From contig NZ_JADOBQ010000006.1 of assembly GCF_015644665.1 (NCBI RefSeq), forward strand, positions 124,001 to 188,000: a stretch of DNA of 64,000 nt. Reading direction: 5' to 3'. Every line of letters starts with the position of its first letter. The stretch's first letter is position 1. The position numbers and the translations under genes are program-made. The notes beneath the pieces were generated by a model that saw nothing but the letters and a program-made list of their open reading frames with translations, had not been told where the DNA came from and searched no databases. Below are positions 5,105 through 12,476 of the stretch, piece after piece. This DNA is from Roseobacter sp. MH60115 (GTDB taxonomy: Bacteria > Pseudomonadota > Alphaproteobacteria > Rhodobacterales > Rhodobacteraceae).

Positions 5105-5228
5105 TGGGGTTCTCCGGGACTTCTGAGGAAATATAGGAAAATCCTAATTACTCTCAAGAGCGCGCTTCATCGGTCTTTAAGGCCCTCGCGTCAAGATCAG
5201 TTCACCAGAGTAAGAATGGGTATGAGTG

Positions 5229-5507
5229 ATGTATCTAAAGAAAGTGGATGGGCCGCGATCGGTGACATTGGCAGACGGCAGTGTCATGACACAGGCCGAC
5301 CTTCCGCCTGCACGCACGAAACGCTGGGTGGCATCGCGCAAGGCTGCGGTGGTGCGTGGCGTGGCCTATGGGCTGATCACGCAAAGCGATGCGCTCAAGC
5401 GCTATCAGATCAGCGAAGATGAGTTTCACGAGTGGGTCAAAGCGGTGTCAGAGCATGGCGAAGACGCCTTGAAAGCCACAGCTCTACAAAAATATAGACA
5501 ACCCTAA
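5229..5507 (+). CDS. sciP: SciP-like CtrA inhibitor (DUF1153)
   Basis: This 92-residue protein has the DUF1153 signature of SciP, the small CtrA inhibitory protein first described in Caulobacter, where it blocks CtrA-dependent transcription outside the correct cell-cycle phase. The conserved sequence DGPRSVTLADGSVMT starts the protein, followed by a helix-turn-helix-like stretch around ARTKRWVASRKAAVVRGV and SDALKRYQISEDEFHEW. I used the ATG directly after an in-frame GTG because MYLKK matches the family opening. The immediate downstream neighbour is ctrA, the classic arrangement in Rhodobacterales. Confidence 0.9.
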   Translation: MYLKKVDGPRSVTLADGSVMTQADLPPARTKRWVASRKAAVVRGVAYGLITQSDALKRYQISEDEFHEWVKAVSEHGEDALKATALQKYRQP

Positions 5508-5534
5508 GTTGTTCGCGTAACTTTCTTGCAGACG

Positions 5535-5549
5535 GTAACGTGTAGTTAA
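5535..5549. promoter_or_regulatory. candidate CtrA box upstream of ctrA
   Basis: GTAA-N7-TTAA matches the CtrA consensus TTAA-N7-TTAA with one mismatch. It lies about 57 bases before the ctrA start, in a region with two further GTTAA/GGTTAA half sites (5545-5577). Autoregulation of ctrA through such boxes is established in Caulobacter; here it is inferred from the motif only. Confidence 0.5.
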
Positions 5550-5605
5550 CCTTTTTTGTTCACGGTTAATTCCGACGAAAACGTTCACTCGATGCGGAGA
5601 AACTC

Positions 5606-6325
5606 ATGCGCGTACTGCTAGTGGAAGACGATCCCACAACCTCGAAGAGCATCGAACTGATGCTGACACACGCCAATCTGAACGTCTATGCGACGGATCT
5701 GGGGGAGGAAGGGATCGATCTTGCAAAACTGTACGATTATGATCTGATTCTCCTTGACCTCGATCTGCCGGACATGAACGGGCATGAGGTGCTGCGTCAG
5801 CTGCGCCTGTCCCGTATCGAGACGCCTATCCTGATCCTGTCCGGCGCGGATGATACCGAAAACAAGATCAAAGGCTTTGGTTTCGGGGCGGATGACTATC
5901 TGACTAAGCCATTCCACCGGGAAGAACTGGTGGCCCGCATTCATGCGATTATCCGACGCTCGAAAGGGCATTCCCAATCCGTGATCGACACTGGCCTGAT
6001 TTCGGTGAACCTGGATGCTAAGACCGTCAGTGCGGACAACAAACCGGTGCATTTGACCGGCAAAGAATACCAGATGCTGGAGCTTTTGTCGCTGCGCAAA
6101 GGGACAACCCTGACGAAGGAAATGTTCCTGAACCATCTTTACGGCGGGATGGACGAACCCGAACTGAAGATCATCGACGTATTCATCTGCAAACTGCGCA
6201 AGAAACTCAGCACGGCGACAGGTGGCGAAAACTACATCGAAACCGTCTGGGGGCGTGGCTACGTGCTGCGGGACCCGGAGCCCAACCAGGTTGACGACCC
6301 ACAACGGCTCGCGGTCGGCGCCTGA
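5606..6325 (+). CDS. ctrA: cell cycle response regulator CtrA
   Basis: CtrA (239 residues) is an OmpR-family response regulator. The receiver domain carries the acidic pocket EDD at residues 7-9 and the phospho-accepting Asp51 in [10 protein letters not shown]. The winged-helix DNA-binding domain includes [17 protein letters not shown], a stretch nearly invariant in CtrA, and ends with [13 protein letters not shown]. In Caulobacter CtrA controls replication and division; in Rhodobacteraceae it mainly drives motility, quorum-linked phenotypes and gene transfer agents, usually as a nonessential regulator. The C-terminus ends in VGA rather than the di-alanine degron of Caulobacter CtrA. The upstream GTAA-N7-TTAA site suggests autoregulation. 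Confidence 0.97.
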
Positions 6326-6336
6326 ACACGCTTTAC

Positions 6337-6369
6337 CTGGTCCGGCCAAGTCGGCTTGCGCCGGACCAG
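6337..6369. repeat. strong hairpin downstream of ctrA
   Basis: The arms CTGGTCCGG (6337-6345) and CCGGACCAG (6361-6369) pair over 9 bp, and an inner CAAG/CTTG stem closes a TCGG loop. It starts 12 bases after the ctrA stop. A U-run does not follow on the plus strand (the next bases are ACGCAAAAAA), so it may act as a processing or pausing hairpin rather than a classical terminator. Confidence 0.6.
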
Positions 6370-6400
6370 ACGCAAAAAATCTTCCACGCGAAATGAACTG

Positions 6401-10666
<4,266 letters not shown>

Positions 10667-10693
10667 GCGCACCGTCGCATTTTGTTCGCGAAT

Positions 10694-10708
10694 GTTCTCA
10701 TTAAGTTC
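10694..10708. promoter_or_regulatory. LexA (SOS) box, GTTC-N7-GTTC
   Basis: GTTC at 10694-10697 and GTTC at 10705-10708 are separated by exactly seven bases, a perfect match to the established alphaproteobacterial LexA operator GTTC-N7-GTTC. A third GTTC at 10684 precedes it with 6-base spacing. A candidate -10 element TAAAAT (10721-10726) lies downstream, which puts the box over the -35 region. The next gene is the 42-codon ORF that starts 55 bases beyond the box. Confidence 0.75.
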
Positions 10709-10762
10709 TTTACAGTTGATTAAAATTATGAGAACAAAGAGGAAACAGAACGGAGGGTTGTC

Positions 10763-10891
10763 ATGTCCATACTGCTACAGATCAAAGACATCGCATCGCG
10801 GTCTCACGCGACGTTGCTTCAGGATGCAGCAGGGGCAACGGCACTCATCGTGATGCTTGTGGTGGGGTTACACCTGCCGTCTCTTACCTGA
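10763..10891 (+). CDS. small membrane peptide (42 aa), predicted SOS-controlled
   Basis: The ORF has an ATG preceded by a clear CGGAGGG ribosome binding site (10751-10757) with 5-base spacing. It encodes 42 residues: a short N-terminal part with Lys, Arg and His (MSILLQIKDIASRSHATLLQ), then one hydrophobic segment (about residues 24-41, with LIVMLVVGLHLP) ending at Thr. It looks like a single-pass inner membrane peptide. I recall similar short Rhodobacteraceae proteins with a VMLVVGLHLP tail but cannot verify this. The upstream LexA box predicts DNA-damage induction. By analogy with Caulobacter SidA, a 29-residue SOS-induced membrane inhibitor of division, a checkpoint role is possible; that is inference. 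Confidence 0.75.
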   Translation: MSILLQIKDIASRSHATLLQDAAGATALIVMLVVGLHLPSLT

Positions 10892-11071
10892 TTTCTGCCT
10901 GCGATCTCGCGCCTTGTATGTGCCAGCACTTTTCCCAATCCGGTGCTTGAGACGAACACTGCCTGTTCCACGTCTCATCAGGGCTTCCCCCTGCCGCATG
11001 TACAGGACTCCCCCGCGAGAGACGCTTAACCTGACGCCGCCGTCCTGCTCGGGACGTGCGGCGTTTTTTTT
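10892..11071 (+). ncRNA. structured 3' UTR or small RNA downstream of the 42-aa gene
   Basis: The 180 bases after the small gene contain no ORF of note but several clean stems: AGCAC/GTGCT (10925-10947), GAGAC-GAACA / TGTTC-GTCTC with a CTGCC loop (10949-10976), and a long-range TCTCGCG/CGCGAGA pairing (near 10905 and 11014). They are followed by a rho-independent terminator. This pattern suits a stable 3' UTR or a 3'-derived sRNA. It does not match the SRP, 6S or tmRNA signatures I know. Confidence 0.4.
11034..11071 (+). terminator. rho-independent terminator
   Basis: The arms ACGCCGC (11034-11040) and GCGGCGT (11058-11064) pair, with an inner CGTCC/GGACG stem. The 3' arm runs into eight T residues (11064-11071). 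It terminates plus-strand transcription from the small SOS-linked gene, just before the end of the convergent chemoreceptor gene. Confidence 0.85.
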
Positions 11072-11081
11072 CGCAGGGACG

Positions 11082-12476
11082 TCAGAAAGTGTAGGCCAGC
11101 CGCAACCCACCCCAGTGCCTGCCCTGCACAAAAATAGGCGCGGACAGGTCCTTCATCATCTTGAACTCACCGCCGCCCATGTCCCGGCGATAAACCTGCA
11201 GCAGGAACGGCTCGGTGTTGCGCCCCGCCTTCAGCCCGACCCGATCGTCGAAAATGCGGCGATTGCGGCAATGGGCCATGTTCCACACCGGATCGTCGCT
11301 GGGCGGATGGGAGAATTTGCGGTTGTGTGTCGGCAGATACCCGTTTGTGTCGACGGCTGCACAGAAAACAACCTTGCTGTCCATCTCCAGAACCGGTTCC
11401 TGCAAGGGCGGCAGGATACGGTCCATCACTTCGGTACACTCATTGATGACCTGCTCCGGATCGGATCCCGGGATCGGGCGATAGTTGCGGTCAAACAGAC
11501 GCGACATCGTGGTGGTCCCGCTCTCCACGGCGTCCTCCAGGCGGTCACCCAACTCGCGCGCAAGGCTCTGCGCCCGTTGAATGAAAGGCGTGTCCACGGA
11601 ATTGCCGCCCAACAGGGCAGTCGATTGAACAATCGTCTCCGAGGTGTCGATCAGGCGCAACACCCGTTCATGGGTCTTCTCGATACCGGAAGAGGTTGAC
11701 TGCACGGCGGTGTCGATCTCCTTCAGGGCAGGCTCGAAATCAGACATGGCGGAATGCATGCGCTCTGCCTGCTCGGCGATCCGCTGCGCCTGTTGGTTGG
11801 CCGACGTGATCGAGGTCTCCATCCGGCTGAGCGCCGTGTCCGTGCCACCAGCATTTTCCAGCACGTCAGCGGCCTGTGTCGCAATCCCGCTCGCTTCCTT
11901 GCCAAGCTCCAAAATCCAGTCCGCCAGGGATTCGATGTTGTTGGAAATCTCGACCGCTGCATCGCGGGTTTTCTGGGACAACTCGTTGATGGCATCGGCC
12001 ACCACGGCAAAGCCCCGCCCCGCGTCACCGGCGCGGGCCGCTTCGATCTTGGCGTTGATCGCCAGCGTGTTCACCTGCGTCGCAATGCCGGCAATCTGCT
12101 GATTGTTGGTTTTCACCGCTGAGAGCGTGTCGCCGACCGCTTCGGTTTTCTGGGACAGATCCTGTACCCATCCGGCAACACTGCGGGTCTTTTCCCCCGT
12201 TGTCCGGACCAGTTCGGCGGAAGATTTCACATCGCGGGCGGTCTCATCGGTGTTCTGCGCCATGGTCTGCACCGCGTCGCGCACATCGGAATTGGCTTTG
12301 CCCATTTCGCTGGCACGCTCATCCAGCACGCTCAACCCGCGGCGCTGCGCCCTTGCGTGTTCCTCCACCAGATCGAGAAACCCGGCAATGTCGACGATTT
12401 CATATCCAAGCGCTGCCGCGGCCTGCGTCAACCGATCCGCATGTCTGTTGTCGTCAAACTGAGGTTGGATGTTCAT
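11082..12476 (-). CDS. cytoplasmic methyl-accepting chemotaxis protein
   Basis: This 464-residue chemoreceptor has no transmembrane segment. Its conserved signalling hairpin is [20 protein letters not shown] followed by [16 protein letters not shown], at about residues 125-165. The N-terminal 60 residues are short and helical. The C-terminal 110 residues (from about 350: [18 protein letters not shown] ... [20 protein letters not shown]) look like a PAS/Cache-type sensor placed after the signalling domain. It is presumably a soluble receptor coupled to CheA/CheW, with an unknown ligand. A CCGCAG/CTGCGG stem (12483-12500) lies just before the start. No chemotaxis partner genes are in the window. 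Confidence 0.88.

Follow-up and report, generated by a model that had tools for sequence, protein, structure and literature searches.

A family-wide, unnamed membrane peptide encoded behind a LexA-type operator in Rhodobacteraceae

SOS-induced inhibitors with a single transmembrane (TM) segment that target FtsW or FtsN recur among the systems described in PMC4211646 and PMC13396833. In Caulobacter crescentus, SidA is described as a small SOS-induced inner-membrane protein under a GTTCN7GTTC box (PMC4211646, PMC12700426). YneA of Bacillus subtilis, SosA of Staphylococcus aureus, and ChiZ of Mycobacterium are damage-induced single-TM inhibitors of late division; AlphaFold 3 models place YneA, ChiZ, SosA, and SidA on FtsW, the latter three not with high confidence according to the authors (PMC13396833). 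The peptide examined here resembles SidA in being very small, alphaproteobacterial, with one predicted TM segment and an SOS-type GTTCN7GTTC box. The SOS-induced membrane peptides TisB and DinQ of Escherichia coli, which are similar in size to this peptide, are type I toxins with antisense RNA. In the TisB type, the membrane helix forms a pore by means of its polar or charged residues.

The locus lies in a 64,000-nt stretch of DNA (the window). The features of the locus and its neighborhood are as follows, in coordinates of the window:

5226..5507, plus strand: sciP, NCBIfam equivalog above cut-off
5606..6325, plus strand: ctrA, NCBIfam equivalog above cut-off
8576..10666, plus strand: recG, the upstream neighbor, NCBIfam RecG equivalog above cut-off, directly upstream in 68/70 loci
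10684..10687, plus strand: upstream GTTC half-site, 10 bp before box 1, each base conserved in 61 to 63 of the 68 box-bearing loci
10694..10708, plus strand: LexA box 1, GTTCTCATTAAGTTC (GTTCN7GTTC), perfect in 68/70 loci and in 80/80 further contigs
10709..10714, plus strand: TTTACA, probable -35 element, 79 to 100% conserved per base over 68 loci and TTGACA-like in some
10732..10746, minus strand: second, inverted, degenerate LexA-type box, GAAC-N7-AAAC (GAAC-N7-CAAC in most relatives), a candidate LexA site
10751..10757, plus strand: ribosome binding site CGGAGGG, by sequence
10763..10891, plus strand: gene of a 42-residue membrane peptide, 185/198 genera, pN/pS 0.20, one predicted helix at residues 3-41
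11033..11071, plus strand: putative intrinsic terminator of the peptide transcript, hairpin of -25 kcal/mol (z -6.2) followed by a U run
11082-12476, convergent, downstream of the peptide gene: gene with the MCP signaling domain PF00015, a neighbor in only 4/20 wider loci

A sequence-only reading of the window had proposed an exact GTTC-N7-GTTC at 10694-10708 and a 42-codon gene for a one-TM peptide, with a CGGAGGG ribosome binding site, located after ligA-recG. We found the box at that position as GTTCTCATTAAGTTC, 54 nt from the ATG of an open reading frame (ORF) at 10763-10891 that is preceded by CGGAGGG at 10751-10757. Both ligA and recG lie directly upstream, and a hydropathy of 2.16 from residue 22 points to a single TM segment within the predicted helix. 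The observation of a LexA box and a membrane-peptide ORF is confirmed. The promoter proposed in the same reading did not hold up as well: it took TAAAAT (10721-10726) as the -10 and had the box overlie the -35. Because TTTACA is conserved and the TAAAAT stretch is not, the -35 probably abuts box 1 rather than lying under it. That reading missed the half-site, the inverted box, and the terminator. A consensus promoter scan gave no match at the region upstream of the peptide gene, and the terminator escaped a simple terminator scan.

To place the operator among relatives, we used loci chosen by peptide similarity alone, with the box not used in the choice. When 146 genomes were searched at the protein level, 82 had a match at an E value of ≤1; every one of the 19 genomes of the genus, the window's own included, was among them. 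We fetched 70 of these 82; the 12 left out had E values of 0.013 to 0.94 (G141, G119, G064, G048, G129, G072, G019, G127, G113, G102, G022, and G092). A perfect, sense-direction GTTCN7GTTC was found within 160 nt upstream of the start in 68/70 loci (all except L060 and L062), against 2 boxes elsewhere in the same loci over 447,446 strand-bases, or 0.0007 per 160 nt as the local background. Further contigs from a separate scan had the box in 80/80 and recG upstream in 80/80. These 80 contigs come from Roseobacter, Sulfitobacter, Tateyamaria, Ruegeria, Phaeobacter, Tritonibacter, Rhodovulum, Phaeovulum, Defluviimonas, Frigidibacter, and others, some species being shared with the first set. Conservation of peptide and box in related genomes, which the sequence-only reading had set as its own check, was therefore found for both, the peptide occurring in 185/198 genera of the family.

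The operator is a composite of the GTTC half-site, the perfect box, the TTTACA -35-like element, and the second, inverted, degenerate box. Aligned over the 68 box-bearing loci, its consensus is GTTC-N6-GTTCTTAAAAAGTTCTTTACA-N14-TGAGAACAAARRGGCAACA, in which the middle box cannot vary, because bearing it was the condition for inclusion, while the other letters were free to do so. GAACN7NAAC was present within 160 nt upstream in 68/70 loci, and the last half-site of the inverted box begins with C in 58/68, with G in 4, and with A in the window. Spacing is fixed, with an identical 18-base spacer in 59/67 distinct operators. Across the 68 loci, the sequence separating the two boxes shows no conservation. 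The pattern GTTCN7GTTCTTNAC-N14-22-GAACAA occurred in 139/198 genera of the family, which we take to be the GTDB Rhodobacteraceae, once per genome, and its reversed control gave 0. In a class-wide draw the same composite pattern was found in 4/372 genomes, all 4 among the 5 Rhodobacteraceae members of the draw, and in 0/367 of the other alphaproteobacterial genomes. Read in the other direction, 69 of 70 operator loci (L251-L320) encoded the peptide, the exception being L285; three genomes are present twice in this set, leaving 67 distinct loci, 66 of them with the peptide. Taken together, the comparison strongly supports control of the peptide gene by a LexA-type operator across Rhodobacteraceae, and LexA probably binds there. 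In Caulobacter, ∼97% of SOS promoters have a single box (PMC12700426); against that background, the double operator suggests tight control.

An alternative upstream start, in a frame reading MRTKxQQ, was considered and rejected, as it joins the peptide frame only in some relatives. Several third codon positions of that frame are as conserved as the others, and we read it as operator DNA. In most of the 68 loci, operator positions 34-36 read ATG, GTG, or TTG.

LexA-type boxes of the same kind were found elsewhere in the window's own genome, at lexA, at recA, and at ORFs read as imuA and imuB. Two opposite-orientation LexA-type boxes, one of them imperfect, were present at the recA promoter of the genus in all 11 plus-strand loci read (of 17); the recA loci concerned are L084, L135-L144, and L149. 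As a separate observation, two perfect LexA-type boxes of this genome, at C12:58346 (L079, ∼1502) and C13:377254 (L081, ∼1504), share contig stretches with serine-recombinase-like ORFs and possibly mark SOS-controlled mobile elements.

A profile search found the peptide in 179/198 genera at an E value of ≤0.01. Six divergent, boxed versions found by hand behind recG (G530, G562, G525, G490, G051, and G572) bring the total to 185/198, with position and design as the sole basis for adding them; G490, G572, and G562 have position, size, and boxes in common with the others but little sequence, and their starts were chosen by hand. The weak matches G546 and G579 lay outside the hand inspection. An identical peptide is encoded in L171, and by operator count the gene is single copy. 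Over 30 independent sequence pairs, pN/pS was 0.20 in frame but 1.25 and 2.84 when the frame was shifted; since the ratio is low only in its own frame, the sequence is selected as protein.

We collected 192 distinct peptides through homology or operator searches, with filters on length and hydrophobicity and exclusive of the versions found by hand behind recG. A D-x-x-G/A core was present in 191/192, and the lone exception was dropped before columns were counted. In 178/191, the distance from the conserved D to the end is exactly 21 residues, and no charged residue follows that D in any of the 191. The half before D has a mean net charge of +1.3 and is moderately amphipathic (moment, 0.37), while the TM half is almost without hydrophobic moment (0.05); by the positive-inside rule, the N terminus would be inside and the C terminus outside. 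The most conserved TM positions (G24, L28, L32, L36, and P39) all fall on the same side of the helix, residues 27 and 35 are small, and AlphaFold2 predicts one helix over residues 3-41 (mean pLDDT, 88.7; pTM, 0.46). A conserved one-TM peptide throughout the family is thus strongly supported by comparison of predicted sequences.

No fitting family was found in Pfam, NCBIfam, or PDB, the best single-member E values (0.0095 and 0.008) belonging to unrelated large families; the gene has therefore probably been missed in annotation. These searches also linked the peptide to no known division inhibitor by family, which counts against the division reading. A mobile origin was considered and rejected: there were 0 matches in 50,697 phage records, and the plasmid collection gave 1 match, on a 1.58-Mb Pseudorhodobacter replicon. 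In the open-licence PMC literature we found no paper on the peptide and no named SOS division inhibitor for Rhodobacteraceae, and neither recG nor "small protein" appears in the main text of a paper on LexA sites of D. shibae (PMC6473078).

The peptide was missing in 13/198 genera (G026, G032, G035, G047, G072, G077, G495, G509, G522, G555, G567, G594, and G595), and a LexA match was also missing in 5 of those 13. Among all 14 genomes without a LexA match, the peptide was missing in 5 and present in 9, most of the 9 being incomplete. When the comparison was limited to genomes with ≥90% completeness and ≤5% contamination, the peptide was missing in 4/6 LexA-negative versus 7/168 LexA-positive genomes (Fisher P = 1e-4, uncorrected for relatedness). 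The peptide is nevertheless present without a LexA match in G550 (complete) and G560 (complete or nearly so), which speaks against a strict link to LexA; the other seven such carriers are incomplete or contaminated genomes. We inspected the region behind recG by hand in 29 genomes, mostly weak or negative in the profile search, and the 23 true recG loci among them had both peptide and box in 16 and neither in 7. Six of the 13 genomes lacking the peptide (G032, G047, G077, G495, G522, and G555) also yielded no RecG in the search, their matches being Mfd-like or absent; G522 and G555 are incomplete.

recG was upstream on the same strand in 68/70 loci (not in L050 and L067). In three genomes, at L050 (G078), L067 (G052), and L401 (G575), operator and peptide occur without an adjoining recG, and the unit still adjoins NifU-like and gluQ-like ORFs as in the window (gene names by reading). 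These recG-free loci indicate that the unit does not depend on recG. On a larger scale, the upstream block of sciP, ctrA, ligA, and recG (window 5226-10666), a cell-cycle and repair neighborhood, was kept in 16/18 loci with recG and at least 6 kb upstream; of the 20 loci fetched, L390 (too short) and L401 (no recG) were not counted. Outside the family, a boxed small TM ORF behind recG was found in 0/30 loci (of 40 found in 41 genomes of other alphaproteobacterial families); one of the 30 had a lone box 382 nt behind recG, and three had a small hydrophobic ORF. The operator, the protein, and their linkage are thus conserved and fixed, and they are restricted to the family.

We conclude that the membrane peptide encoded behind the LexA-type operator is real, occurs family-wide, is unnamed, and belongs among the LexA-controlled small membrane proteins. 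SidA, set apart here by its description, has 29 residues versus 40 to 42 in our peptides, which have an extra amphipathic half; unlike SidA, the peptide has a double operator and a recG/ctrA neighborhood and was found only in Rhodobacteraceae. The sequence-only reading noted no residue similarity between the two. DidA of C. crescentus is likewise a small damage-induced membrane protein and blocks division, but it is described as SOS independent and induced by DriD (PMC4211646), whereas the operator here is of the LexA type. YneA and ChiZ each carry a LysM domain in the periplasm, and SosA has a long extracellular portion; here, the chain runs only some three residues past the TM proline.

We propose that the locus is an autonomous SOS transcription unit in which LexA would occupy two boxes flanking the core promoter and keep it off. 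Upon DNA damage, RecA would be activated, LexA would cleave itself, and a short mRNA would be made, giving a 40- to 42-residue inner-membrane peptide with its N terminus predicted to be cytosolic and its C terminus outside. Comparison across genomes strongly supports SOS control of a predicted membrane peptide, and LexA repression with RecA-dependent release follows from established SOS biology; that the peptide inserts into the inner membrane and engages a partner by its conserved face is what we infer. Once released, the peptide would form a helix that is amphipathic in its cytosolic half and contains one TM segment, whose conserved face (G24, L28, L32, G35/L36, and P39) would dock on a membrane partner. 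The partner would most likely be the late septal synthase FtsW/FtsI/FtsN, with division held until LexA re-accumulates; we favor it because SidA and YneA act there and because of the published AlphaFold 3 models on FtsW. On this analogy, we give about even odds (roughly 0.5) to a LexA-repressed, damage-released peptide that blocks late division as SidA does in Caulobacter. Mutants of R. capsulatus in lexA reportedly filament, which would fit a division block.

It is important to note that box 1 taken alone is not above chance: the window holds 3 exact GTTCN7GTTC against 1.41 expected, 15/100 shuffles reached 3, and GTTCYN5AGTTC was unenriched in the whole genome (8 matches versus 13 in the reversed control). 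The significance of the box comes from the comparative evidence rather than from the window or its own genome, and its retention in 68/70 and 80/80 relatives, far from the local background given above, refutes a chance match, to which we leave next to no probability. Nor is the conserved product at all likely to be a small RNA with an incidental ORF. The transcript would be short with a strong terminator, and two Rfam matches were obtained (E values of 0.09 and 0.64, far below gathering scores), but the low pN/pS in the peptide's own frame only and the stop placed 21 residues after D in 178/191 peptides argue for a protein. A membrane-depolarizing SOS toxin of the TisB kind, slowing growth or making persisters, would share the size, the SOS control, the one hydrophobic segment, and perhaps the N-terminal moment of 0.37. 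The charged membrane helix of the TisB type is absent, however: the TM half is uncharged in 191/191 with a moment of 0.05, unlike a pore-forming amphipathic helix, and its single conserved face suggests a specific partner. As for the antisense RNA of TisB and DinQ, no conserved sign of one was seen between the boxes, where the sequence lacks conservation; the alignment showed nothing conserved beyond the operator, and a simple promoter scan gave no promoter-like site. We consider such a toxin unlikely and rank it second among the rivals.

The main rival is that the LexA-controlled peptide tunes some other inner-membrane protein, such as a sensor kinase of the CckA/DivL-CtrA system, a membrane protease, or a transporter. 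Many membrane partners outside the divisome would leave the same trace, which counts against the division reading, and the conserved TM face is compatible with any specific helix partner. Moreover, ctrA and sciP are conserved neighbors (16/18 loci), and in R. capsulatus, both cckA and the gene transfer agent are described as already subject to LexA action (PMC6473078, PMC6363796). A neighborhood is weak evidence on its own, though, and we hold this rival to be a tentative possibility. That the TM helix binds a membrane kinase of the CckA/DivL-CtrA relay (or a shared division hub) and thereby links DNA damage with arrest of division, with the output of CtrA, and with release of the gene transfer agent strikes us as distinctly improbable. 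For the block of late division, a checkpoint role is likely but unproven, and plausible by analogy with SidA, YneA, and SosA.

Marine and photosynthetic model organisms belong to the Rhodobacteraceae, as does the field of gene transfer agents. A tiny gene with a damage switch, adjoining recG and kept in nearly all sampled genera, is a good candidate for a signal that holds division during DNA repair in these bacteria, and whether division is so held becomes a one-gene knockout question. The naturally varied set of TM peptides may, in addition, allow the inhibitor site on the partner to be mapped.
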